Below, in pieces: positions 3,747 to 49,159 of a stretch of DNA of 64,000 bases. The notes under the pieces were generated by a model. That model was not told where the DNA came from and did not search any database. It saw nothing but the letters and a program-made list of their open reading frames with translations. How positions within the stretch are numbered: position 1 is the first letter of the stretch; each line of letters opens with the position of its first letter. Origin of the DNA: Tetracentron sinense (lineage: Eukaryota; Streptophyta; Magnoliopsida; Trochodendrales; Trochodendraceae). The stretch lies in contig CM026571.1 in NCBI GenBank assembly GCA_015143295.1, positions 33,198,505 to 33,262,504 on the forward strand, in the 5' to 3' direction. Made by a program: the position numbers and the translations under genes.

Positions 3747-4247
3747 CGGTACTTCTTGCTACCCTCCTAGCTATAGCTCCTCTTTTCCTTTATTTCTCTT
3801 TGTTTCTTTCATTTGTACATGTGCTATGAGTTTGGAAGTGTGAACGTGGTGAATGGAGATGGAATAGGCGATTGGATGCCGTGTGAAATGATGTGATGAA
3901 TGAAATGGGGAGGGTATTGTATCCATAATGAACAAACACGTATGATGTGAGTAAACTCACTGTAACGCCCCAAAATACCCCCTAGGAGTTTTAGGGATAT
4001 TTTAGGTGTCACACTGCGTACCTATCAAACCATCCTGTAATGCACAAGATAAAATACAGTACTAACAACGATAATCAGAGCGCGGAAGCTATCATATATG
4101 CGGAAGCGTGAACAAATTTTCATTTTTCTTCGGATGATCCAAAATAGTATTCCAAGTTAACATAAATACAAAACATGTCTAAGTCTAAGGTGGACAGGCC
4201 CACCTATCAAAATATCAAAATACACAAGACCCTCTCATACTCTCCCC

Positions 4248-4388
4248 TCAACAGTAGTCGAGGTATGGCCACGCATCGAGGTCTCGGTCCGCCTGAGACT
4301 GTAATGGAATAGCCGGTTCTCTCTCTTCTATATACTCTTCCTCGACCCAAGGCTCCGGGTCGAGGGCTCCCTCAGTACCTGCCGACAT
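4248..4388 (-). CDS. Conserved LTR micro-ORF, 46 aa (3' LTR copy of A)
   Basis: I do not recognise this peptide. It starts MSAGTEG, has PEPWVEEEYIEE at residues 11-22 and ends LDAWPYLDYC before TGA. It is strongly acidic and has no signal peptide or membrane segment. The same frame recurs in S2, S1 and the LTR at 48740, with largely synonymous codon changes within PWVEEEY and PYLDY, which points to selection on a protein. It follows immediately on a hairpin, GCTGAG-9 nt-CTCAGC. The two differences from the 5' LTR copy of A noted in this ORF (GAA to GAG twice) are silent. The alternative is that GGCAG/GT just after the ATG is a splice acceptor and this is only the last exon. Confidence 0.6.
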   Translation of the reverse strand: MSAGTEGALDPEPWVEEEYIEEREPAIPLQSQADRDLDAWPYLDYC

Positions 4389-4418
4389 GAAAGTACGGCT
4401 GAGCATGGAATACTCAGC
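4381..4418 (-). promoter_or_regulatory. Conserved double hairpin before the micro-ORF (A, 3' LTR)
   Basis: The minus strand reads GCTGAG-TATTCCATG-CTCAGC, followed by GCCGTAC...GTCGGC. The first six-base arms pair perfectly and the second pair shares GCCG/CGGC. It recurs at 11825-11862, 14689-14727, 25216-25256, 31238-31276 and 48709-48747, mostly unchanged in the arms. Whether it acts as RNA or DNA is unknown. Confidence 0.7.
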
Positions 4419-4676
4419 GAGTACAAGCTACTAGCAGACCATAACAATAATAAAACACACAATAGTAATATCATACAAGCAGTAACAGAAACATCACAAA
4501 GAAACAGTATAGGGCATAACACAATACAAGCATCCTGACGTGCGTACATGAATGCGAAAACGCCGATAAAACTCATGCTTGAAAACCCCTGTCATGTCCC
4601 GGTATGCCTCATAGAAATCATGTATGCGTGCATGCATGAATGCATGATCATCATCTTGTAAACCTCCATCTTGTAA

Positions 4677-4932
4677 CTTGTGAGCCAGAGGCTAGCGCCC
4701 GAATCTCCCTGGGCTGCCAACCTCCTTGATATGCAATGCACTTGTGAGCCAGAGGTTAGTACCCGAATGTCCCTGGGCTACCAACCTCCTTGTTATGAAA
4801 TGCACTTGTGAGCCAGAGGTTAGTACCCGAATGTCCCTGGGCTACCAACCTCCTTGTTATGAAATGCACTTGTGAGCCAGAGGCTAGTACCCGAATGTCC
4901 CTGGGCTACCAACCTCCTTGTTATGAAATGCA
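4677..4932. repeat. 64-bp tandem repeat, 4 copies (A, 3' LTR)
   Basis: Units start CTTGTGAGCCAGAGG at 4677, 4741, 4805 and 4869. The first is the most diverged; the last three are almost identical. The 5' LTR of the same element has five units, so the copy number changed by one after or during insertion. Confidence 0.97.
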
Positions 4933-5908
4933 CTTGTGTTCATTATATGCACATGCTCTTGAAATCTCGGTTCATGCTATCATGCGTGCTCGTGTACGTG
5001 TCCATAGTGACAATCATGATAATGGGAATAACCAAAATATGACATTTCAATTCAATTCATGATATGAACATAGGTAACATAAGTAGTTTGCATAACATTT
5101 GATCAATTTATCGTTTATAAGAACGCATGCATAAAACCCATTTCCATATCCTTCATTGAGATTATTTATTCATAGTTTAGGCATTTTGTCAAACACTTCC
5201 ATACATTATTCCTTAGTAGTTTATCTCCTTCTTTTAAATGCATATTTTTCATTCAATCACACAATGGTAAGTTTGTTATTTGTACAATGCCCATCCTCCA
5301 TTTTCCAATCCACAACCCACACATCATACATCACACATTCGGCATCCAATCGCCGTATCCAACCTCCATCCAAGCATTCCTACCCTTTCTTTATCTTGTT
5401 TATATTTGTTATAGATGACACATTTTGCAAGGAATAAAACACACTAACAAGAATCATATTTCATAAGGAAAACCTAGATTTATTGCTAGGGTAAGTTAGT
5501 AGGGTGTACTAACCTTAGATCAAGGCTTGATCTTGAAGAAACCTTGAAATAGAAGCTCTATTTGGAAGAAGAACACCTTTGCTTGAAGGAGACTCGAGTT
5601 AGGGAAGAAACCCCTTTCAAAAACGTGCTTGGGTTGCTGCCCTAGGTTGGAGAATGGTTCACACACGAGCTTGAGCCTTGAACTTGAAGCAACTCGAGTT
5701 GGGGTGAGCTAGGGTTCTTAAACCCCCCTTGATTCCCTTCTCAAAACCAAACCCTAGGTTAGAGCTTTCTCCTCTTCTCTTTCTATCTCTCAAAATCCCT
5801 CAAATGTTGTAAGTGAGGTCTCAAAGAGTCAAGAAAACCCTTATGGGTAAGGGTTTAACACCCAAAAGACGAAAACGCCCTTACTGAAATTTCTGCAAAA
5901 ACGCGAAG

Positions 5909-6164
5909 ACCGAGCGATCGGTGTTCATGACCGATCGATCGGTTGCCTACCGAGCGATCGGTGTTTATGACCGATCGACCGGTCAAAAACTCACTCTCTG
6001 GAAAATTTCCCCATACAAAATTTCTGACCGTGCGATAGCTACCGATCGATCGCTGACTGGACCGAGCGATCGGTGCTCTGTATGTCTGGACTGTTTTGAC
6101 CATATCTTTTGACTCGCTCGTCGGATTTCGACGATTCAACTTGCGTTGGATCCGTCTTTCGAAA
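5909..6164 (-). promoter_or_regulatory. U3 of A (3' LTR): palindromic array and conserved box
   Basis: Positions 5909-6071 contain about six copies of ACCGATCGATCGGT-like words, some as CCGAGCGATCGG. The conserved box at 6099-6164 includes, on the minus strand, CAAC-GCAA-GTTG flanked by GAnGA/TCGTC, a possible stem-loop with a GNRA-type loop. No canonical TATA box is seen downstream in this family. Confidence 0.65.
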
Positions 6165-6286
6165 ATGAACATTTCTGACGTTTCGAAATTTCCGATTTCT
6201 CCCTTATTTATTAATTAGACTACAAAAACGGCCAATTAGCTACGAAGGTGCTATTCATTAAGGATGAAAAAGTCCGGGGTGCTACA

Positions 6287-9710: not shown

Positions 9711-9842
9711 CTGTGCGATTAAGTGACTACTATTAGTAGATTTCAAACAACAAGCATCATACATAGGTAACCCCTAGTATAGAAACTCACAAAACAAACC
9801 ATAGAAATTTTACACAATTTAAACTCTAGAATTCATGCGTAC
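9711..9842 (-). other. Predicted 132-nt spliceosomal intron between gag and protease of A
   Basis: On the minus strand the donor is CAAG/GTACGC and the acceptor TCGCACAG/GCGCC. Removing it joins ...DDVVQ to GALLVNEC in frame. Without splicing, the frame meets TAG six codons later (after GTHEF). The same intron, 137 nt, is present at the same site in relic D. The insert is AT-rich and non-coding, unlike the exons. RNA data would be needed to prove splicing. Confidence 0.75.
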
Positions 9843-11083
9843 CTTGCACAACATCGTCGGATGCACATGCGTCTCTCTCTGATAGGGCGAAAACTCGACC
9901 CTGTGTGGCTGGGCGAGGAGGCCGTGTAGACGGTGAGGCCCTCGAAGCCTGAGAAGAGCTAGGCTGAGATGTCTGCCTAACCGGGGGCCTGCTCCCTGAA
10001 GACTGAGTTGGCAATTGACGCCGGGGACAATCTCTGACCATGTGGCCTTGGTCACCACAATGGAAGCAACTTCCTGAAACTCTCCGGCATTCTCCCGCTG
10101 GATGCCTCCTCCCACAAAGTGTGCAAACATCATGCAAATAGGAGCTAGGAAGGAGCATATCCCGTAGCCTGAGTAACTGTGGGGCGAGGAGCATATGAGG
10201 TAGCCGGGTGAAAGGCCAGTGGAGCAAAAGAGCGGGGAGCCTGTGGTGCTGAATACATCCTCTATGACTGAGCCGGCCCTGCGGACTGATACAAGCTCGT
10301 CCTTGCTCTTTTCTCCCCTGAACTACTCGACTGTCCTTTTTCCATTCCTCTCCTTTTGAAGAACTCCTCGGAGTTCGACTCGGCCAATAGTGCTTTATCA
10401 ACAACTTCGGAATATGTCTCATGTCTAAACATCGAGACTCGGTCCTTGAGATAGGCCTTCAACCCCCTCTCGAATTTCTGGGCCTTCATAGCCTCGGTCG
10501 CTATCATGTGTGGAGCAAATCGAGATAGCTCCGAAAATTTGGCTTCATAAGCCGCTACGGACATATTACCTTGCTCCAAGGTAATGAATTCGACTTCCAT
10601 CTTTTCTTTCATCCAGACCGGAAAGTACTTCTTGTTGAAAACCTCCAAGAATTCCTCCCAAGTCCAATCTTGAACTTGCCGGGTCAACTCTCGGGTCCGA
10701 AGTGCAGACTTCCACCAATGATCGGCCTCGCCTTCAAGCATAAAGGCGGCCCATGTGACCCTTTCCACTTCAGTAGGTGCTAATACCGAGAATATCTTCT
10801 CCAGTTGCCGGATCCAACCCTCGGCAACAAGTGGATCAATGCTTCCACAAAAAGTTGGAGGCCTCATCCTCCGAAAGGCTTCTATCGCGGCTTGGGCTCG
10901 GTTAGGAGGAGCCGGTATAAGTGCCGCATTAGGCGGAGTGGCCGGTTGCCTTGCCGCCAACATAGCCAAAGTCTCGGCTATGGATGCGAATGCTTGGGCA
11001 AAGTCGGGTTGATCATCACCCAATGGAGCATCACCTCCATTACCCCTCGTGTTGTACCCGCGACCCCGGGTATTGCGTCTCAT
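9843..11083 (-). CDS. gag: Gag of element A (exon 1; one stop, one frameshift)
   Basis: This is the capsid and nucleocapsid precursor of the Tekay element. The ATG at 11083 (MRRNTRGRG) is chosen because it lies 8 nt after an acceptor-like AG and is shared with D; the frame is open upstream only through a non-ATG codon. The retrotransposon gag domain (WIRQLEKIF...WTWEEFLEVFNKKYFP...FVxLEQG-like) is followed by a KR-rich linker. Two zinc knuckles follow, a short CTLCGRRHPAGEC and a standard CFHCGDQGHMVRDC (CX2CX4HX4C), near 10050-10130. A TAG at 10262-10264 and a frameshift near 10150-10165 separate the capsid part from the knuckles. Confidence 0.88.
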
Positions 11084-11388
11084 GATTTCTCCTAAGAACG
11101 ACAATACAACGTGAGTCTAACTTGGATACGCATTTAGTACAATTTCGCAATTCACTCAATACATATTCATCAAGCACATTTAATAAGTACAACACAATTA
11201 ATGCACATATCGTATAAAACACAACATCATTCATACAATCCGTGTTCCTAGCGTAGGACTCTAAGTTTGGTTGAGATTCAACCTATTTTGACTAGGACTA
11301 ACTTGTTAGTCCATACTTGGAAGACAACTAATGCCTTGTTCAATCATGGTCTCTAGTACTACGCGACCCTAGGGACTCTAATGCCTAG

Positions 11389-11402: not shown

Positions 11403-11691
11403 TCTGTAACGCCCCAAAATACCCCCTAGGAGTTTTAGGGATATTTTAGGTGTCACACTGCGTACCTATCAAACCATCCTGTAATGCACAAGATAAAATA
11501 CAGTACTAACAACGATAATCAGAGTGCGGAAGCTATCATATATGCGGAAGCGTGAACAAATTTTCATTTTTCTTCGGATGATCCAAAATAGTATTCCAAG
11601 TTAACATAAATACAAAACATGTCTAAGTCTAAGGTGGACAGGCCCACCTATCAAAATATCAAAATACACAAGACCCTCTCATACTCTCCCC

Positions 11692-11832
11692 TCAACAGTA
11701 GTCGAGGTATGGCCACGCATCGAGGTCTCGGTCCGCCTGAGACTGTAATGGAATAGCCGGCTCTCTCTCCTCTATATACTCTTCCTCGACCCAAGGCTCC
11801 GGGTCGAGGGCTCCCTCAGTACCTGCCGACAT
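11692..11832 (-). CDS. Conserved LTR micro-ORF, 46 aa (5' LTR copy of A)
   Basis: The peptide is the same as the one at 4248-4388. In the 5' LTR it would lie in the leader of the element's own RNA, upstream of the PBS and gag, so it could be translated first, or spliced out if the predicted leader intron is used. Function unknown. Confidence 0.6.
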   Translation of the reverse strand: MSAGTEGALDPEPWVEEEYIEEREPAIPLQSQADRDLDAWPYLDYC

Positions 11833-12120
11833 GAAAGTACGGCTGAGCATGGAATACTCAGCGAGTACAAGCTACTAGCAGACCATAACAATAATAAAAC
11901 ACACAATAGTAATATCATACAAGCAGTAACAGAAACATCACAAAGAAACAGTATAGGGCATGACACAATACAAGCATCCTGACGTGCGTACATGAATGCG
12001 AAAACGCCGATAAAACTCATGCTTGAAAACCCCTGTCATGTCCCGGTATGCCTCATAGAAATCATGTATGCGTGCATGCATGAATGCATGATCATCATCT
12101 TGTAAACCTCCATCTTGTAA

Positions 12121-12440
12121 CTTGTGAGCCAGAGGCTAGCGCCCGAATCTCCCTGGGCTGCCAACCTCCTTGATATGCAATGCACTTGTGAGCCAGAGGT
12201 TAGTACCCGAATGTCCCTGGGCTACCAACCTCCTTGTTATGAAATGCACTTGTGAGCCAGAGGTTAGTACCCGAATGTCCCTGGGCTACCAACCTCCTTG
12301 TTATGAAATGCACTTGTGAGCCAGAGGTTAGTACTCGAATGTCCCTGGGCTACCAACCTCCTTGTTATGAAATGCACTTGTGAGCCAGAGGCTAGTACCC
12401 GAATGTCCCTGGGCTACCAACCTCTTTGTTATGAAATGCA
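12121..12440. repeat. 64-bp tandem repeat, 5 copies (A, 5' LTR)
   Basis: Units start at 12121, 12185, 12249, 12313 and 12377. There is one unit more than in the 3' LTR of the same element. Confidence 0.97.
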
Positions 12441-13415
12441 CTTATGTTCATTATATGCACATGCTCTTGAAATCTCGGTTCATGCTATCACGCGTGCTCG
12501 TGTATGTGTCCATAGTGACAATCATGATAATGGGAATAACCAAAATATGACATTTCAATTCAATTCATGATATGAACATAGGTAACATAAGTAGTTTGCA
12601 TAACATTTGATCAATTTATCGTTTATAAGAACGCATGCATAAAACCCATTTCCATATCCTTCATTGAGATTATTTATTCATAGTTTAGGCATTTTGTCAA
12701 ACACTTCCATACATTATTCCTTAGTAGTTTATCTCCTTCTTTTAAATGCATATTTTCCATTCAATCACACAATGGTAAGTTTGTTATTTGTACAATGCCC
12801 ATCCTCCATTTTCCAATCCACAACCCACACATCATACATCACACATTCGGCATCCAATCGCCGTATCCAACCTCCATCCAAGCATTCCTACCCTTTCTTT
12901 ATCTTGTTTATATTTGTTATAGATGACACATTTTGCAAGGAATAAAACACACTAACAAGAATCATATTTCATAAGGAAAACCTAGATTTATTGCTAGGGT
13001 AAGTTAGTAGGGTGTACTAACCTTAGATCAAGGCTTGATCTTGAAGAAACCTTGAAATAGAAGCTCTATTTGGAAGAAGAACACCTTTGCTTGAAGGAGA
13101 CTCGAGTTAGGGAAGAAACCCCTTTCAAAAACGTGCTTGGGTTGCTGCCCTAGCTTGGAGAATGGTTCACACACGAGCTTGAGCCTTGAACTTGAAGCAA
13201 CTCGAGTTGGGGTGAGCTAGGGTTCTTAAACCCCCCTTGATTCCCTTCTCAAAACCAAACCCTAGGTTAGAGCTTTCTCCTCTTCTCTCTCTATCTCTCA
13301 AAATCCCTCAAATGTTGTAAGTGAGGCCTCAAAGAGTCAAGAAAACCCTTATGGGTAAGGGTTTAACACCCAAAAGACGAAAACGCCCTTACTGAAATTT
13401 CTGCAAAAACGCGAA

Positions 13416-13691
13416 GACCGAGCGATCGGTGTTCATGACCGATCGATCGGTTGCCTACCGAGCGATCGGTGTTTATGACCGATCGACCGGTCAAAAACTC
13501 ACTCTCTGGAAAATTTCCCCATACAAAATTTCTGACCGTGCGATAGCTATCGATCGATCGGTTATGAACCGATCGATCGCTGACTGGACCGAGCGATCGG
13601 TGCTCTGTATGTCTGGACTGTTTTGACCATATCTTTTGACTCGCTCGTCGGATTTCGACGATTCAACTTGCGTTGGATCCGTCTTTCGAAA
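13416..13691 (-). promoter_or_regulatory. U3 of A (5' LTR): palindromic array and conserved box
   Basis: The ACCGATCGATCGGT array at 13416-13604 has one palindromic unit more than the 3' LTR (19 extra bases near 13553-13571). The conserved U3 box follows at 13626-13691. This copy would drive transcription of the element. Confidence 0.65.
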
Positions 13692-14199
13692 ATGAACATT
13701 TCTGACGTTTCGAAATTTCCGATTTCTCCCTTATTTATTAATTAGACTACAAAAACGGCCAATTAGCTACGAAGGTGCTATTCATTAAGTATGAAAAAGT
13801 CCGGGGTGCTACACTCACCTAGAAAAGCATGATTTAGGTTTAAAAGAATAATGAATAATGAACACACCATGTTTGATGAAATGCCAAGGTGAATAAAGTG
13901 AGTTGTAAATTGGGAAATGCATGCCTAATAAATTATGGATATTGCTAGGGCCTATAATAGTGTGTTTTCTTGCTTTCCCTAAATGATGTGAATATTACAT
14001 TGCTCAATCATTGATGTTATATGTGTTGTGAATTACCCAAATGTCATATTTAAATTTAAATGCAAGTATGTACACGATTCCCACGAGCACGGCATGCATG
14101 ACATGATTTATCGAGGTTTTTAAGAACATGTTTAGAGGTGGGACATATCCTACGATATGTTTTACCTCGCTTTTCACAAGAAAACAAGAACCAACATTC

Positions 14200-14719: not shown

Positions 14720-14839
14720 ATGTCGGCAGGTTCTGAGGGAGCTGCTGCTCCATTTGATGTTTGTGCTCCTGGTCCATGGGTGGAAGAGGAGTACGTCGAG
14801 GAGCCTTTGGAGGATCCTCTTGTAGAGGGTTATCAGTAG
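14720..14839 (+). CDS. Conserved LTR micro-ORF, 39 aa (S2)
   Basis: The frame starts MSAGSEG, has GPWVEEEYVEEP at residues 18-29 and ends EGYQ before TAG. Compared with A, the codons for PWVEEEY differ mainly at third positions (for example CCT/CCA, GTC/GTG, GAA/GAG, TAT/TAC). The WPYLDYC tail is absent. The conserved hairpin lies directly upstream at 14689-14727. Confidence 0.55.
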   Translation: MSAGSEGAAAPFDVCAPGPWVEEEYVEEPLEDPLVEGYQ

Positions 14840-24331: not shown

Positions 24332-25249
24332 GCCCAACTCGTGCCTTAGGGTTTCAGAAACCCTTTAGGCATATTTTTGAGAGATTTTGAGAGGAGAAGA
24401 AAAGGGGGAAAGCTAGGGTGTTGCTCAAGCTTGAAGAGAATATCAAGATCATCCCTTCTTTGGTGTTCTCCATCTAAGAACTCAAGGTTCTCACTTGTTC
24501 CAAGCCCTTGGAATCGAATTCATGGATTTCACCAAGGTAGATACATTCTACTACCAAACTTGTGATAATACTAGTTCACCATATGATGCTCTTCTAATTC
24601 TATACCAAAATCTTAGTTTGATATGGTATGTGATGTTGCTTTTATACTTGGATATAAACTACAATTATTAGGCACTCTATGTGTTTGGTTTAATGCCTCT
24701 AAGGGCTTTTGTGTTTAAATATGTTATTATTCTCATATGTTTCGCATGTCTCGCATGAACCAGGTTTTTCATGGATTTCTCAAAGTTATAAAAAGGGTTT
24801 TAAGTAAGGGATTCACATGATGATTTTAAGAAACCCCATGATATTGTCCAAGATCAGTTCACAAGCTCCAAGGATCATACTAAACTTACAAGAAACTCGA
24901 TGATAATGTCTAAGATCGATGTACAAGCTCCAAGGATCATAAATGTAAATGTTCTAAGATCTCTATGGTTTGCTCTATCGTTTTGCTCCAAGGCTCTATG
25001 GATCATAAATGACTCTAAGGAACTCTATGAACTTAACATGACTCAAAGAACTCACAAGGCTATGATTATCGCAAGACTTACACAGTTTTGGTTTTCGGAT
25101 GTCATTTCACGTGCTATTTCACGGTTTCTACGCTTCGATATGTTTTAAGGATTTCAGTCTCCATGTCATGCATGCTTCCATGATATTATTGCTTTGTTGT
25201 TAGTAGTATGTATACGCTGAGTATTCCACGCTTAGCCGATATTTCTTAT

Positions 25250-25392
25250 CATCGGCAAGTGCACGGGTTCCTTTCGACTTGTGTGGTTCAGAACCTTGGG
25301 TGGAGGAAGAGTACTACGACTCGGAGCCTTCTATGGACAACTACCAGGATGATGGATCGCTAGACAGGCGGCCCGACTTTGACTTTTACTGA
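25250..25392 (+). pseudogene. LTR micro-ORF without its ATG (S1)
   Basis: The frame is open through GSEPWVEEEYYDSEP and LDRRPDFDFY to TGA at 25390-25392. The ATG found in A and S2 is replaced here by sequence with an extra base (TTATCATCGGCA). The tail matches LDxWPYLDYC of A in spacing. Retention of the frame without the ATG fits either decay or use as a spliced last exon. Confidence 0.5.
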
Positions 25393-27219: not shown

Positions 27220-29305
27220 GTACCTATGAGCGCCGAAATTCACTCCCTCTCACAAAAAGGGGTCTGGATTACCTGTGTATCCCTCACGGGTGTGAAAGGG
27301 TTCTTAGAGTCGCCACCTATTCATTCAGAAGGGATAAGTCCCCCGAGTTTGGATAAGGTCTTGGTCTACGAGTGAGATCAGGGTAAGAGGTTCGGTTAAG
27401 TCCGGGGAAGGTGTTAGACACCCCGAGGCTTCCGTCTTTCAGCGGTTCCGTACTTCTCGAGTTTAAGCCAAATAAAGTTAATCTTGATTGTAATACCGAG
27501 GTGTTTCAATTAACACTAATCCAAGAAATGAAAAGCTAACTGGGGTCAGGCCCGTCTTGGGCTGCCTACGTACTCACAGGGTGAGATCAGACTAAGCGTA
27601 GTTCTGGCATGTAAGCCTGTGCCGAGACTAGGGGCGTGTGTGTGTGCACCAAGGGTAGCTAACATGGACTAGTCTGGTAGACTAGGTTTTGGTTGACCAA
27701 TGAGAGTCAAGTGCATGGTATTCAAGCCCGGTAGGCTTAGGGGGTAGTCTGGTAGTCTAGGGCAAAGTCCGGCTTGGGTTAGGGTTGCTAACCTGGGTTA
27801 GGACGAACTAACTATGGTTAGGGTTGCTAACCATAGTAAAGGGGATGTGGTGTGTAGCCTGGTAGGCTAAAGGGAGGCACGGTAGGCCGAGGATAGTCCA
27901 GTAGACTTGGTTTTTAGGCCCAGTAGGCCGTAAACTGAAATTAACTACGATTAGGGTTGCTGTAGAACCCCGGAAATTTGGTTCACTGTTCAAGTGAATA
28001 GTGCCGAGGACACTAGTATTGTAAGGGCCAAATGCCCTTATTATAAGTTGGGTTTGGTTAATGAGGGTGAGGGTTTCCCTCATAGCCTAAGTGCGATGTG
28101 AGTTTCATGTTAGAATCAAGAAGTGTAAGGTGTTTTGAGAAAACATGCAAAGAGTATAAAACCATACTCAAAGCATTAAATGTATAGTGGTATGAATAAT
28201 GTCGATTCAAAGGATTTGTGGTGGCCTGGGCCTCCCATGCATATGGGTTGTGCCCAATAGGTTACCTTGGTTTGGTTTAAGAACCTAGGGTCGTGAATTA
28301 TGAGAATGGAGTAAGGGTTGGATTCAAAGTAGATGGGGTATGAAAATACCCTTAGTATGTATGAAGAAACCCGGAACCGAGTTCCCTGGGCTGGGAATAG
28401 TGTCATGAATAGTGTGTGGATAGTGCCCTTGTGTGGTGTGTGTAAAGGCTTAAGGCCTTTACACTTTGTTCTTGGTAGCATGGTCCATTTGGTCTAAGTA
28501 GTTTGGCGATTTAAATAAGGGTTTAAAGTGTGTATGTTGAGTCTCAAAATAAGAGTATAATAATACTCAAGTATTTAGGGTATAAAATACCATAAGTGTG
28601 AACGTAGAACCACGGGAAACCATTTCACAATGTTGTGAACAGTGCCATGGGCACAAGTCTTGTAAAGGCCGAGGGCCATTTATGTGACTTGGTTAAGGGG
28701 CATGATAAGAGTAGTCAAAATTAGCTTAAGTGTTTATTGTTGGGTGTTTGGGATGAATAAATAAGAGTATGACATACTCTAAGTGGGTAAAAAGATGGGT
28801 ATAAGGTACCCTAAGTGTTAATGAGTTGCGAGTGAATAGTGCTGTTACGCGAGGCATAAAGAGACCGGGGCCTCTCATGCATGTTGGGGTGTGCCCCATG
28901 ATCACCTAGGTGTGTTAAAAAACCTATGGAGTAATGAGTCATGAGGTGTTAGTATGGTTTTGGAACCGAAGGAAAGGAGTGTGAAACACTCGAAATGTTC
29001 TAAGTGTCAAGAATGGGAATGCCTTAGCATACCCTTAACTTTAAATAGCCCTACTGTTCACACCGCTCATCGGAATCAAGTGATTCTTGAATTTTTAGAA
29101 AGGTATTTAAACCCTCTTCGAGGTTCATGTTTACCATTTTTCTTGGTTATGAGTCAGGGATAGGTTAAAAGAAGGAATTCTGAAGTAGGACCGGGTGAAA
29201 ATCTGGACTGACGAAACCCAGTTTCGGATCAGTCAGCTTTAGGGGCAATATGGTCCAATAAAAATAGAGAATTAGAAATTATGTAAAACACAAAAGTTGT
29301 TCTCC

Positions 29306-29666
29306 TTCGAAAGACGAATCCAACGCAAGTTGAATCGTCAAAATCGAACAAGCGAGTCAAAAGTTATAGCCAAGATATGAAAACGCAAAAATGCTGAAGC
29401 TTTCTGCAAAAGTTGCGATCGCTCGTAGGGACCCTACGAACGATCGTAGCGGAGCTACGAACGATCGTAGAGTTGCTACGATCGATCGTAAAGCCCCAGA
29501 AAGTGCTGGAAACTCACGGGTGAAGCTACGATTGATCGTAGGAAGCTACGATCGATCGTAGAAAGCTACGATCGATCGTAAATCACTACGAACGATCGTA
29601 GATACGCGATTTTACTTTCTTGGATGCGATTTTTTTAGGGGTTTTTCACCCCTTGCACTATAAATA
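29306..29666 (+). promoter_or_regulatory. U3 of S3: conserved box, palindromic array, TATA box
   Basis: The conserved box is at 29306-29371. From 29417 to 29605 there are seven to eight copies of CTACGATCGATCGTAG or CTACGAACGATCGTAG. A canonical TATA box, CTATAAATAGAGG, lies at 29658-29668. This is the clearest case of the box-palindromes-TATA order. A splice-donor-like GAG/GTTAGTAA is at 29901. Confidence 0.78.
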
Positions 29667-30869
29667 GAGGACTTTAGGGGGTTTTTGGTTTACCCTAAAC
29701 CAAGGAGAGTTCCTAGAAAGAGAAGGAGAGGATCTTGAGCATTTCAAAGAGGGTTTTGATTTGGAATCAAGAAAAGCTTCAATCAAGGGTTTGATCTTCC
29801 CCACTCCAAGCTTGGATCACTTCCTTCAAGTAGGATCTTCCTCAATCAAGTAATGATTCCACTCAAGGGTTTCCTTCAACCTAGAAATTGATTCTAAGAG
29901 GTTAGTAAAACTACTATCTAGCTTTGTTATCATACATGGATGGGAAAAGATGACCCAATGGGTGATTTAGCTTTACTAGGATGCCAAGATCTAAATGTGA
30001 ATGAAAGTATGTTTGAATGGAATGTTAGTGATTCTACCTATCTAACTTTGGTATTGTGCAAAATATGAAAAGATGATAAAAAGGGGTTTATAAATTGGGG
30101 GTTTTTCTACGTTATGATCAAATAGACAAATAGTAGTTTATAAATTGGGGGTTTTTCAATAACAAGAATGAACATGGCTATAATTGTAAGTAAATGATAG
30201 TATCTCTAAATGAAACATGGTTTCAAGTATACTATGATACAAATATTAAGTGTGGGAATTTTGGGTGAACTAGAACATGATCAAACAAGTAAATAAGGGT
30301 TTATGATTTTGGGGTTTTCCAATGAAAGGGATGAATGTTGTTATGCTAGTGTGTAAGTATTATTATCCTCCAATAAACCATGATTTTAAGTGTGATATGA
30401 TGAAGTGGGCTTAGAAGCCATGATTGTTATGATGTGATGCAATGAATGAAATGTTCTACATTCTAGAATTGTCTAAGTATGCTATGATGCTAATATACCT
30501 TGTATGAACCATATGAGTTAATTAAGGTATTCAAGTATACTATAATGATCATTGTGCCTTGTATGAACATGTTTAATTAGTTAAAGCTTTCCACATAGAT
30601 GTTATACTGCTCACAAGCACTCCACGCACGATAAGTATTGCACGACCGTGGTTTTCTCATAAGCATGAATTTCAAGAAATCATAAGAAGGGTTTTCAAAG
30701 GCATTCATAAGCAAGAAGCATAGATGCATAAGAGTTGACTAAGCCAAACTTTGGGTTGGCATTCTAAGATCGGTTACTTCATGCTCTCAAGGATCAAGTC
30801 TAAGATCTCGCATAAACTCCACGGATCATAAGTCTCGCAAGGCTTTTCAAGAACTCATAAGAAACTCAC

Positions 30870-31090
30870 AAGTCTAAGATCTTGCATATGTCTCCAAGGA
30901 GAACAAGCTCACAAGGATCATAAGCTCACAAGAAGCTCACAAGTACTCATAAGCTCACAAGTACTCATAAGCTCACAAGAAGCTCATAAGCTCACAAGTA
31001 CTCACAAGCTCACAAGAACTCTAAGCTCACAAGAATTCATAAGAAAACATGAGGCTCACAAGCATTCATAAGAACTCATAAGCATACATG
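30870..31090. repeat. AGCTCACAAG short tandem repeats in S3
   Basis: About ten copies of (A)GCTCACAAG and CTCATAAG variants occur, separated by 5-15 bases. They lie in the LTR between the donor-like site and the hairpin at 31238. They add no coding frame. Confidence 0.75.
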
Positions 31091-31237
31091 AGAGGGTTTG
31101 TTTTCCATGAAAAGAACAAGTTTTATGAAAGGTTTTTCATGACGGGTTTTAAGCATGGATTTGGTGATTTGTATTCTTTTCCGCACTGTATTAAATATTG
31201 TGATTATGATAGCATTGTTAGCTAGTAGATTTTGCTC

Positions 31238-31311
31238 GCTGAGTATTCCATGCTCAGCCGTACATGTTATGTCGGCAGGTACGCTATACGATACATGTAC
31301 TCCGGTTCTTT
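31238..31311 (+). pseudogene. Hairpin and micro-ORF remnant in S3
   Basis: The hairpin GCTGAG-9 nt-CTCAGC is intact (31238-31276) and ATG at 31269 starts MSAG, as in A and S2. The frame ends after 14 codons and the PWVEEEY block is not found, so this copy is broken or diverged. Confidence 0.5.
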
Positions 31312-31955
31312 GAAACGAGGCGACTCATGGGGAACAGGAGATTGCTCGGGTGGTCATCCAGATGTTGGGGGTTTGACACGTGACCCCATGGTTGGGAAGA
31401 GAGTGAGAGAGACATGTATTTTGGGTTTTATGTCTGGGGATATTGTATCACTTGAGTTTGTAACCCAGGTGAAGGATTGCTTGTACATATTTCGGTTTCT
31501 ATTCATTTATTGCAAATAGTTGTACTTGGAATACAGTTAAGTTATTAAAGAAATTTTCAGTTCACTATTCAGCTTGCCTTATATGCTTCCGCAGGATGAT
31601 TGTATGGTAGGTAACGAGCCCAAATATAGCCTAACTCCTAGGTGGTATTTTGGGGCGTTACAGTTGCTAACCTCAGTTAAGGGGGGTCTAACTATGGTTA
31701 GGGTTGCTAACCAAGGTTAGGGAGAGGGCTAAAGTTAGTTTTATGGTCTGATTGATTTTTAGGAATTTTCGTTTAATTTCCCAAAGTTGGTAGGGTTAAG
31801 GGGTACTTAACCGCAGTTAAATGATAATTGGAGGTGTATTTAACTATGCTTAAGGGTCTAGTGAGGTCCAAGATGGGCCCAAGGGGCTAGGCAGGGCCTA
31901 AAGTGGCCTCCTACCAGGCCTGAGCCCCTGCAAAAGCCCAGAATAAAAAAACAGT

Positions 31956-45398: not shown

Positions 45399-46425
45399 GC
45401 TGTGAGCGTGGGAATTCACTCCCTCTCACAAAAAGGGGTCTGGATTACCTATGTACCCTCACGGGTGTGAAAGGGTTTTTAGAGTTGCAACCTATTCATT
45501 CAGAACGGATAAGTCCCCCGAGTTTGGATAAGGTCTTGGTCTACGAGTGGGATTAGGGTAAAGGGGTTCAGTTAAGCCCAGGGAAGGTGTTAGGCACCCC
45601 GAGGCTTCCATCTTTCAATGGTTCCGTACTTCCCAAGTATAAGCCAAACAAATTTAATCTTGATTGTAATGTCGAGGTGTTTGAATTAACACTAATCCAA
45701 GAAAGGAAAAGCTAACTGGGGTTGGGCCCGTGTTGGGCTGCCTACGTACTCACAGGGCGAGATCAGACCAAGCGTAGTTCTGGCACATGAGCCTGTGCCG
45801 AGGCTAGGGGGCGTGTGTGTAGGCACCAAGGGTGGCTAACATGGATTAGTCCAGTAGACTAGGGTTTGGTTGACCGAGGAGGGTCAAGTGCATGGTATTC
45901 AAGCCCGGTAGGCATAAGGGGTAGTCCGGTAGACTAAGGCGAAGTCCAGCCTAGGTTAGGGTTGCTAAAAGGGGTTAGGCCAAAATAACTATGGTTCAGG
46001 TTACTAACCACAGTAAAGGGGATGTGGTGTGTAGCCCAGTAGGCTAAGGGGAGGCCCGGTAGGCCGAGGATAGTCTAGTAGATTTAGTTTTTAGGCCCGG
46101 TAGGCCGTTAACCGAAATTAACTATGATTAGGGTTACTAACCGCAATTAAGGGGGGTCTAACTGTTGTTAGGGTTGCTAACCAGGATTAGGGAGAGGGCC
46201 AAAGTTAGTATTATGGTCCGATTGATTTTTAGGAATTTCTGTTTAATTTCCCAAAGTTGGTAGGGTTAAGGGGTGCTTAACCGCGCTTAAATGATAACCA
46301 GAGGTATATTTAACCGTGGTTAAGGGTCTAGTGAGGTCCAAGGTGGGCCCAGGGGACTAGGCAGGGCCGAAAGTGGCCTCCTACTAGGCTTGGGCCCCTG
46401 CAAAAGCCCAGAATAAAAAAATAGT

Positions 46426-47640
46426 TAATGTCGGTAATAAGATTACCGACATTATAAACAGTATTTTTAGCTGTGTTTTTGCCTCTGCTAACTAGGGTTA
46501 AGGTGTAACCCAAGGTGAGCCAAGGTGATGGGAGTGTAGAGGGGACTCCTGGGAAGGGTTCAGGCTTTGTGTGGGCCACAGGGGATGCCTGGAGGGAGCC
46601 CCACAAGGCTACAAAACCACTGCAATAGTAACAGCATATTGGCAGTAGTTATTCTACCGCCAATACAAAATCAAGCTAAAAACAAGATTGTCGGTGGAAG
46701 GACTACCGATAGTAATGCATAGTTTTATTTTCAGGGATTTAACTAGGGATAGGCTTAACCCTAGGACCTAGAAGGACCAGGCCTGGTCCAGGGAAGTAAG
46801 AGGAGTTTAGTTTGGGCCCAGGACATGGGCCAGGGCCCAACCGAGTTAGCCAAACTAAGCTTCAAAATAGACGGCCAGGAATGGCGGTACTGAGATTACT
46901 GCCATTCCTGGTTTTGCTTGAAATAGGGATGGTGGCCAAGGGGCTGTGCTCAGAGGCATCTAAGGGTTCCCTCATGAGTTGGGGGACCCTTAGGAGGTCC
47001 TGGGGTAGTCTGCACGCCCATAGGAGATGATATACCCGAAGGGGTTCACCACACCTATGGTTTAGGTGGGTGAATACCCTGTGAGGGCCTGGGTTATTAA
47101 CCAAAACACCAAGAAAAATACAAAAAGACTCCCCTGGAGATGACCAGGGGCTCACAAGGATGATCAAATAATAGAAAGATGGGTAAGGAATGGCCCTACC
47201 CTATGCTCTGTTTTGCTCGAATGGGTGGATGTCTGTAGCAGTGTTGGTGAGTGGTGCTTCGGTGGTGCTATAGCAACTGGGAGGTCTAGGATAGACCGAC
47301 AAGGGTCCTGGGATCTAAGTTCAGTGTGTAGAAGAAGCTGAGGGAGGGGCTTCGGATAGGACTTCACCTGAGAGGATTTTACAGACCATTTTTAGTGAAG
47401 GGGGCAATGGGCTTTATAGAGGAAGCTTCAAGGGACCTAGGTGGATTACAAAGAAGGAGGAAGAGGTGGTTGGACCAAGGGGAAGTCATATGAGAGCTGA
47501 GTCATGACGGAGGAGGGGATGGTGGAGTGTGCAAGGCGTTTGCTACCTACAAACTCGGCACTCACAGTTGTTAGTAGAAGGTCTACCGACAATGTGAATT
47601 CAGGCCAAAAACTAATGTCGGTAGATCTTCTACCGACATT
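46426..47640 (-). repeat. Six TGTCGGTAG-type hairpins in the 5' LTR of E
   Basis: Positions: 46426-46454, 46636-46664, 46688-46713, 46878-46907, 47566-47591, 47614-47640. The last has perfect 12-base arms around 3 bases; the first perfect 13-base arms around 3 bases. Only the last two are upstream of the TATA box; the others would be transcribed. Confidence 0.83.
47412..47419 (-). promoter_or_regulatory. TATA box of the 5' LTR of E
   Basis: The minus strand reads CCTCTATAAAGCCC. Hairpins at 47566-47640 lie about 150-225 bases upstream. Confidence 0.65.
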
Positions 47641-47909
47641 CTAAGTTTTGATTTTGAATGGGCTTGGCCCATACACACTCGGTTCTGGAGGCTTGGCTTA
47701 GGGTTTTTGGGCCTTTGTGGCCCACCCCAAGGTATAGGCCTTATGGGCCATGGCTTCGAGTTTCAAGCCCTAAGGGCTAGGGCTAGGGCATCGGCTAGGG
47801 TCACCTAGGGTTTTAGTCCTAAGGGTAGAGCTAGGCCAGGGGGCTAACCATAGTTAAAAGGATTTAACTACAGTTAGATGGGGTATAAAAATTGGGTGCT
47901 TACAGTACC

Positions 47910-48452: not shown

Positions 48453-49159
48453 TAGTATCATACATGAACTTTGGAATTTATCTAAGTTCTAAGTTCAACT
48501 CAGAGAACAACCTAGCCCTAGTGAACCTAATAAAGGGAATCCAGATAAAAATTTATGTGGAAAACTGGATCCCGAGGATCTTTACACCATTGAAAGCAAC
48601 TAATACTATCTACATGTTTCTCATGCATGTCATGTACATTTATGTCATTTAAATCAAAATCATGAATTTGTTTATGTTATTACTATTGTTAGCTAGTAGC
48701 TTGTGCTCGCTGAGTATTCCATGCTCAGCCGTACATTTCATGTCGGCAGGTCCGGTGGATATCTTCAATCCCAAACCATGGATTGAGGAAGAGTATGTTG
48801 AAGAAGATGCGCCTATTCCATTGTAGCCTTAGGAGGACATGGATTTAGATAGGTGGCCTTATCTAGACTATTGTTGAGAGGAGAGTCAATGAGGTTTCCT
48901 TATTTTGAATTTTGATGGTGGGCATGTCCACTCTTATATTTAGTCATGTTTTTGTATAAAACCTTGGAATACTCATCATGTATAGAAAAGAAAAATTGAT
49001 TTCACGCTTCTACATAGTTTAGCTTCCGCATTGTTTCATTTTCGCATTTATTTCGTTTCCACTATAGTACGCCTTATATATTTTGCAAGATGGTTTGCCA
49101 GGTTATGTTAGTAATGCCTAAAGTCTCACCTAACTCCTAGGGGGGATTTTGGGGCATTA
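48453..49159 (+). mobile_element. 3' part of a Tekay-type LTR, 5'-truncated
   Basis: It contains the hairpin (48709-48747), the micro-ORF and the LTR end AACTCCTAGG...GGGGCATTACA at 49159. No start, TSD or internal region is visible. It abuts the leader of D in opposite orientation, so a deletion or inversion has happened here. Confidence 0.7.
48740..48877 (+). CDS. Conserved LTR micro-ORF (48.7-kb LTR)
   Basis: ATG at 48740 starts MSAGP, then KPWIEEEYVEEDAPIPL, and TAG at 48824. After a second TAG the same frame continues with LDRWPYLDYC to TGA at 48875-48877, the same ending as in A. Both TAG codons stand where A has CAG. The codons for EEEY and WPYLDYC differ from A mostly at third positions. 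Intact length would be about that of A. Confidence 0.55.

Follow-up and report, generated by a model that had tools for sequence, protein, structure and literature searches.

A short acidic reading frame with the signature of purifying selection in the long terminal repeats of a retrotransposon group of Tetracentron sinense

The window, i.e., the whole stretch of 64,000 nt of Tetracentron sinense DNA that was analysed, contains on its minus strand a long terminal repeat (LTR) retrotransposon, here called element A, with the target duplication CTCAC at 3956-3960 and 13814-13818. Its LTRs are:

3961..6286, minus strand: 3' LTR of element A, 2326 nt, TGTAGCACC..GGGGCGTTACA in sense, with both edges and the target duplication
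11405..13813, minus strand: 5' LTR of element A, 2409 nt

The internal Pfam domains follow each other on the minus strand in the order Retrotrans_gag, zf-CCHC, RVP_2, RVT_1, RT_RNaseH, Integrase_H2C2 and SH3_Tf2-1, which is the gene order of Ty3/gypsy chromoviruses (gag, protease, RT, RNase H, integrase); a Chromo match reached 23.5 bits, under the curated cut-off of 25.1. The elements presumably belong to the Tekay/Del clade named in the original prediction. In element A the gag ATG lies only ~320 nt away from the LTR. The gag of element A (9826-11116, minus strand) is split over two overlapping frames (10262-11116 and 9826-10458), and the gag of this copy therefore looks frameshifted. Tandem 64-bp repeats occupy 4612-5039 and 12056-12547, in the intron-like part of both A LTRs, and their copy number differs between the two LTRs.

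Both LTRs of element A carry a short frame on the minus strand, which recurs in other LTR families of the window:

4248..4388, minus strand: coding frame copy A1, in the 3' LTR of element A, read 4388 to 4248 from ATG to TGA, 46 aa
11692..11832, minus strand: coding frame copy A2, read 11832 to 11692, 46 codons and TGA, two silent differences from A1
14720..14839, plus strand: coding frame of the S2 family, 39 aa, TAG stop
25252..25392, plus strand: coding frame of the S1 family, without ATG, 46 codons and TGA
48740..48877, plus strand: coding frame of the fourth family, with two in-frame TAG codons
31238..31258, plus strand: first hairpin (HP1, see below) of a sixth LTR, where the frame is lost (14 codons to TGA)

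The frame lies on the U5 side of the LTRs, and in element A it ends 287 nt short of the 3' terminus of the LTR. Its peptide has the core E-P-W-(V/I/L)-E-E-E-Y and frequently the end L-D-R-W-P-Y-L-D-Y-C, and comprises some 35-50 residues from the SAG codons onwards. The original prediction had described a short frame with PWVEEEY at five places, and the frame is indeed present at all of them (as PWIEEEY in the 48740 family), but the copy at 48740 is interrupted by its two TAG codons, and the described WPYLDYC-type end before TGA does not extend to S2, which ends in VEGYQ-TAG. It had rightly stated that the core codons vary among families largely at third positions, that both differences between the A copies are silent (GAA/GAG twice), and that S1, which has no ATG, is an exception to the MSAG start. 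The sixth LTR (27961-31662, plus strand), absent from the earlier list, resembles a solo LTR, ~3.7 kb long and flanked by the target duplication GTTGC, and it sits in a repeat of which an uninterrupted relative lies at 45456-47904. It has upstream DNA in common with the others (block 31214-31283) while the frame is gone; the 70-nt block ending at the frame start is 93% identical between the LTR at 31214 and that at 48685.

Two abutting hairpins (HP1 and HP2) directly precede the frame and a third (HP3) follows it. In copy A1 these are:

4398..4418, minus strand: HP1, GCTGAGTATTCCATGCTCAGC, with GC in common with HP2
4381..4399, minus strand: HP2, GCCGTAC..GTCGGC, whose 3' arm includes ATGTCGGC, the codons M-S-A
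4380-4378, minus strand: AG/G directly after HP2, the acceptor if the frame were a last exon (see below)
4188..4205, minus strand: HP3, AGGTGGG-CCTG-TCCACCT, after the stop codon

HP1 is a 7-bp stem with a UCC triloop in three of the four versions folded, and the four folded hairpin versions have z from -2.0 to -3.0; in the minimum-energy fold of the S1-type version HP1 is accompanied by another second stem, and HP2 is seen in the centroid structure instead. The ATG type of HP2 is GCCG-U-ACAU..AUGU-CGGC, the other types being GCCGAU..AUCGGC, GCCGAA..UUCGGC and GCCGA..UCGGC, and the back-translation of P0004, a protein hit, points to an HP1 whose loop differs and to GCCA/UGGC as the arms of HP2. 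HP3 is located ~60-80 nt after the stop; its motif was found in 63 of 65 loci and its stem is kept by paired changes (GAGTG/CACTC, AGGTG/CACCT, AAAGTG/CACTTT, GCGGG/TCCGC), with a minority of loci folding poorly. The SAG codons form the 3' arm of HP2 and, unlike the rest of the frame, are nearly invariant, third bases included; most of 'MSAG' thus coincides with that arm.

The genome searched comprises 1.16 Gb in 1479 contigs. Three peptide searches gave 25,985, 30,445 and 27,477 candidates, of which 150 were scored each; with the A peptide, all 150 places scored out of its 25,985 first-look candidates matched at 100%. Since copies from protein searches had already been chosen for the peptide, they did not enter the selection test. 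Patterns in the DNA preceding the frame matched 539, 416 and 106 genome places, and the reversed control matched 0 for each. From each pattern 20 loci were picked, non-randomly and to span hairpin types, among the ~100 matches listed, yielding 60 stretches of 356-461 nt, 59 of them usable (L087 was wrongly cut). The SAG codons are partly imposed on this set because the patterns fix TCGGCAGG (or TGTCGGCAGGTC). The frame as such was found again in these loci, chosen blind to the peptide, and this recurrence, like the matches of the A peptide, exceeds chance. Together with four window copies this makes 63 loci, of which 50 keep the frame well enough for alignment. The 13 left out are frameshifted between SAG and core (L069, L070, L094, L106, L115, L120) or in the C-terminal part (L073, L077), or their core is degenerate or lost (L085, L098, L099, L102, L103).

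Pooled over the 50 aligned loci, pN/pS in the frame is 0.416, a ratio that, like the others given here, is descriptive only, in view of the saturated pS between families and the relatedness of the loci. The other five frames of the same loci gave 0.87 and 1.10 and, on the reverse strand, 1.11, 0.55 and 1.72; antisense coding was rejected on these reverse ratios, the frame with 0.55 having 3.4 stops per sequence. For 40 core codon columns the observed pN/pS of 0.383 was reached in none of 2000 column permutations (which went down to 0.52, with a median of 0.81); at positions 1, 2 and 3 of these codons the heterozygosity is.313,.238 and.505. Four tight groups of loci gave 0.14-0.30, and a smaller set of 19 sequences 0.40 (bootstrap range 0.32-0.49, 60 replicates). 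A ratio near 1 was thus found neither in the pool (0.42) nor in the tight groups. Specificity for one frame is clear in these alignments and, given the low pN/pS in that frame only and the outcome of the permutations, the frame is, judged by its substitutions, coding and under purifying selection, which lends support to the predicted LTR-encoded peptide or last exon under selection. It is very improbable that there is no peptide and that constraint on RNA or DNA (packaging, splicing, polyadenylation) mimics a frame. HP1, HP2 and HP3 are all constrained, and the LTR at 31238 (wL3) and L103 keep HP1 and HP2 without the frame, both of which are in line with such a constraint, but it does not account for a third-position bias and a low pN that are confined to one frame, nor does structure explain silent changes at nearly every core codon.

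Frameshifts do occur: in the 59 peptide-blind loci, taken irrespective of copy age, six have the shift between SAG and core, two more that in the C-terminal part, and in five the core is degenerate or lost. In a subset of 39 of these loci, 34 have the core, loosely matched (at most three substitutions), in the frame that TCG-GCA-G sets, and 5 have it in another frame; the number of codons between TCG-GCA-G and the core differs among loci, and a strict rule leaves 23 of the 39 intact. No internal stop precedes the stop used in 40 of the 50 aligned loci, four of which (L081, L090, L114, L122) use an early stop in the C-terminal part. DNA conservation equal to that of the frame was encountered on one side of it, i.e., over ~45 nt upstream, which we attribute to the hairpins and a splice-site-like stretch, and it drops sharply after the stop codon. 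The prediction that the surrounding LTR DNA is much less conserved consequently applies, in S1-type LTRs, immediately behind the stop codon and throughout the intron-like part, but not to the upstream DNA, which is at least as conserved as the frame.

An in-frame ATG is absent from 20 nt before HP1 to SAG in 25 of the 50 loci, and these are constrained equally (pN/pS 0.35) to the 25 with an ATG (0.38). The predicted MSAG is, therefore, not the general start, and these 50 loci do not agree with a stand-alone small ORF that has its own ATG in all families. Three frame classes were distinguished relative to HP1, depending on which of its triplets is in frame, namely ATG (ACG in S1; class 0), CTG (class 1) or TGA (class 2). 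Among the 127 loci with a recognisable core (of 133; protein-chosen and related loci included), 51 belong to class 0, 70 to class 1 and 6 to class 2. In class 2, L049 and L120 have no TGA at that place, L106 and L120 are frameshifted near the core, and L069, L070, L071 and L106 keep the in-frame TGA, the frame of L071 being otherwise intact. The class counts favour a start inside HP1, with the provisos that families are non-independent and that some class-1 loci (L072, L119, L126, L127) are even without CTG. A fixed coding extension upstream through HP1 was rejected, as the spacing from HP1 to SAG varies (30-33 nt) and in-frame stops occur just before HP1 in many loci.

Splice-like sites were found in the LTRs and before gag:

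4427..4450, minus strand: T-rich stretch ending CTAGTAG, 3'-splice-site-like; putative exon 2 start at 4430 or 4427; TAG in 65/65 loci
5514..5870, minus strand: ATG-free putative leader exon, as inspected over 357 nt; 5' limit unmapped
5505..5513, minus strand: putative start of the LTR intron, donor CTAAG/GTTAGTACA
11084..11105, minus strand: acceptor-like TTGTCGTTCTTAG/GAGAAATC directly before the gag ATG (11083)
24501..24545, plus strand: S1 leader end and donor CACCAAG/GTAGATAC; exon end 24536, ATG at 24522 private to this copy

TAG stands 6-21 nt before the first hairpin (GAGTATT) in all 65 loci, following a tract that is 48% T, and in 47 of them an AG lies exactly 15 nt ahead of GAGTATT. 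The A leader, free of ATG over its 357 nt, ends in CTAAG/GTTAGT, the sole donor that a scoring matrix put above 4 bits in that LTR. The donor-like site is conserved across S1-type LTRs and was found in the expected range in 26 of 30 S1-type loci; in half of these (13/26) the 180 nt preceding the picked donor are free of ATG, and in the other 13 they contain one or more, six of the latter picks looking like a later donor site. A start at the S1 leader ATG (24522) was rejected, since the aligned relatives have ATC, ATT or the like at that place. Across 12 S1-type LTRs obtained by protein search, conservation peaks at a TATA-like CTATAAATAG, in the presumed transcription-start region and at AG/GTAGATAC (0.84), is low over the next ~640 nt, increases again over the part that begins shortly ahead of HP1 and reaches the stop, and amounts to 0.42 after the stop codon and then 0.91 at HP3. 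Ahead of the gag start, 12 of 13 loci show by motif an acceptor-like (C/T)TCAG or CTTAG followed by GA, and in the thirteenth (L001) such a site is recognisable by eye; a T-rich acceptor-like site lies directly upstream of gag in the families examined (L001-L068). The site before gag suggests that the Gag-Pol mRNA is spliced, in elements to which introns are not usually attributed, and in combination with the conserved donor-like site in the LTR it indicates that LTR transcripts are probably spliced, from which we infer a single leader with alternative acceptors.

The best model, which we put forward tentatively as nearly but not quite an even bet, is that LTR transcripts with a spliced leader encode an acidic micro-protein whose translation begins inside the hairpins, at an AUG or near-cognate codon. 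RNA from the LTR promoter would carry the ATG-poor leader, which would be spliced either to the TAG acceptor, giving the micro-protein RNA, or to the acceptor directly before gag, giving the Gag-Pol RNA. On the former, the start codon used by ribosomes in the hairpins would be an in-frame AUG if there is one, or else near-cognate CUG or ACG. The peptide may, as a guess, be a trans-acting accessory factor of the element; wL3 and L103, i.e., LTRs with HP1 and HP2 but without the frame, would fit a product supplied in trans. Several observations speak against this model. With 25 of the 50 loci lacking an in-frame ATG, half of the loci need a non-AUG start or another mechanism, and HP1 is conserved as a structure, so that its ATG and CTG may be by-products. 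The TGA kept in frame in four class-2 loci, the ATG-bearing S1-type leaders and the class-1 loci without CTG also count against it.

The main rival, which seems unlikely, holds that the frame is the C-terminal, last coding exon of a longer spliced accessory protein, with the acceptor GGCAG/G at the foot of HP2 (phase 1) and the AUG provided by a coding exon elsewhere in the element. It would explain both the missing ATG and why constraint starts just behind GGCAG/GT, from where the phase is kept, but not upstream (30-33 nt from HP1 to SAG); families without an ATG are constrained like the rest. The acceptor-like GGCAG/G is kept across loci but was required by the search patterns; P0002-P0004 also keep A-G at the acceptor place. 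A comparable case is the spliced CERV mRNA of the nematode element Cer1 (PMC10309623), which, like the product considered here, encodes an accessory product of an LTR element beside Gag-Pol; CERV, however, has 517 aa and five exons, including gag-frame exons, and is needed for export of genomic RNA, whereas here the frame lies in the LTR and the junctions are putative. The partner exon is the difficulty. No conserved phase-1 donor was found at the gag N-terminus or the pol end in the parts of gag and pol examined in other families. The internal donors of A above 4 bits (with the same scoring matrix) are two in pol with phase 0 and one in gag with phase 1, and the latter is not kept in the S1-type relatives examined. 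Splicing from the gag N-terminus (GGAG/GTGATG, phase 1 in A) was rejected as a general solution, being absent in S2, L062, L064 and L068, and no convincing donor was seen at the pol end in A or in three S1-type ends. Joined at GGCAG/G, the LTR leader contains an in-frame stop that is not followed by an ATG, both in A and in 17 of 26 S1-type loci (of the remainder, 2 are open without ATG and 7 have an ATG) and is, therefore, not a general partner. Moreover, a last exon leaves the rarity of the TGA class (6/127) unexplained.

By analogy with regulatory nascent peptides, the frame might also be a uORF, situated in the genomic RNA's 5' leader, with a peptide that controls Gag translation by acting on its own ribosome. 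This we consider improbable: although the copy in the 5' LTR lies upstream of gag and both the small size and a peptide-level constraint up to the stop codon would agree with it, the C-terminus varies by family (LDYC, DFDFC, SDYW, VEGYQ), half the loci have no ATG and the splice acceptor-like site before gag would bypass the frame. Plant conserved-peptide uORFs encode short selected peptides upstream of a main ORF; in contrast, the frame reported here has no general ATG and a variable C-terminus.

Accessory frames inside or overlapping the LTR occur in retroviruses, i.e., sag of MMTV and nef of lentiviruses, which encode much longer proteins with their own start. The present frames share the location in the LTR, but their peptides are short and without Pfam match. 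Elements of the same kind as ours, those of the Tekay clade, carry an extra frame conserved among copies (5'aORF; 500/523 in sunflower), also of unknown function, according to the survey describing it (PMC11728184). That frame is large (400 aa in sunflower) and located between the 5' LTR and gag, whereas the one described here comprises ~45 codons within the LTR (141 nt in A) and so does not classify as a 5'aORF. The same survey gives a minimum ORF length of 300, in the passage concerned without a unit, and long-ORF cut-offs of this sort would make a 45-codon frame invisible to surveys. Spliced subgenomic RNAs that provide separate Gag or other RNAs have been reported for the plant elements EVD, Ogre and BARE (PMC12786077, PMC7730604), even though plant LTR elements are generally intron-less according to a review among these sources. 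Splicing is common to those elements and, putatively, ours, but here the donor-like site lies in the LTR leader and one acceptor-like site directly before gag. No paper found contains the string PWVEEEY, PWIEEEY or WPYLDYC, and no description of an LTR-internal frame of this kind was found in the portions of the literature searched, which lay mostly outside subscription papers.

The LTRs of plant retrotransposons are usually read as non-coding control DNA, and here the LTRs of an abundant group carry a short, acidic frame under selection. Should a selected product indeed be encoded there, any copy of an LTR, even a solo one, might be a gene, splice choice could account for how Gag-Pol is balanced against other products, and a factor that may act between elements or on the host would become directly testable. 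A more far-reaching proposal is that a very abundant plant LTR group bears within its LTR a gene for a trans-acting regulatory micro-protein, complete with promoter, leader exon, intron and a tandem-hairpin start (AUG, ACG or CUG by family), that alternative splicing of one leader picks micro-protein versus Gag-Pol, and that any LTR, including solo LTRs, could express the regulator. This is possible but, in our view, rather doubtful. The donor, acceptors and hairpins offer a concrete RNA anatomy for the element group.

The peptides are acidic, with W, Y and F; the net charge of 50 of them averages -9.4, none being above -4. This composition, which we take to resemble that of acidic activation domains and acidic tails, suggests, as a guess, an activation-domain-like or basic-protein-binding tail. 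Neither 14 peptides nor their profile matched Pfam or PDB sequences (E<=1), and viral contigs gave one pattern match, none being confirmed. Four proteins of the same type, of 44-87 residues, came from ENA contigs of 647-1261 bases, with E down to 8e-14.

Seven of the 12 internal stops in the 50 aligned frames replace the core TGG (L074, L084, L097, L105, L109, L111, L118), a codon that stands in the context CC(A/T)GG; stops at this place would presumably fit methylation-driven decay.
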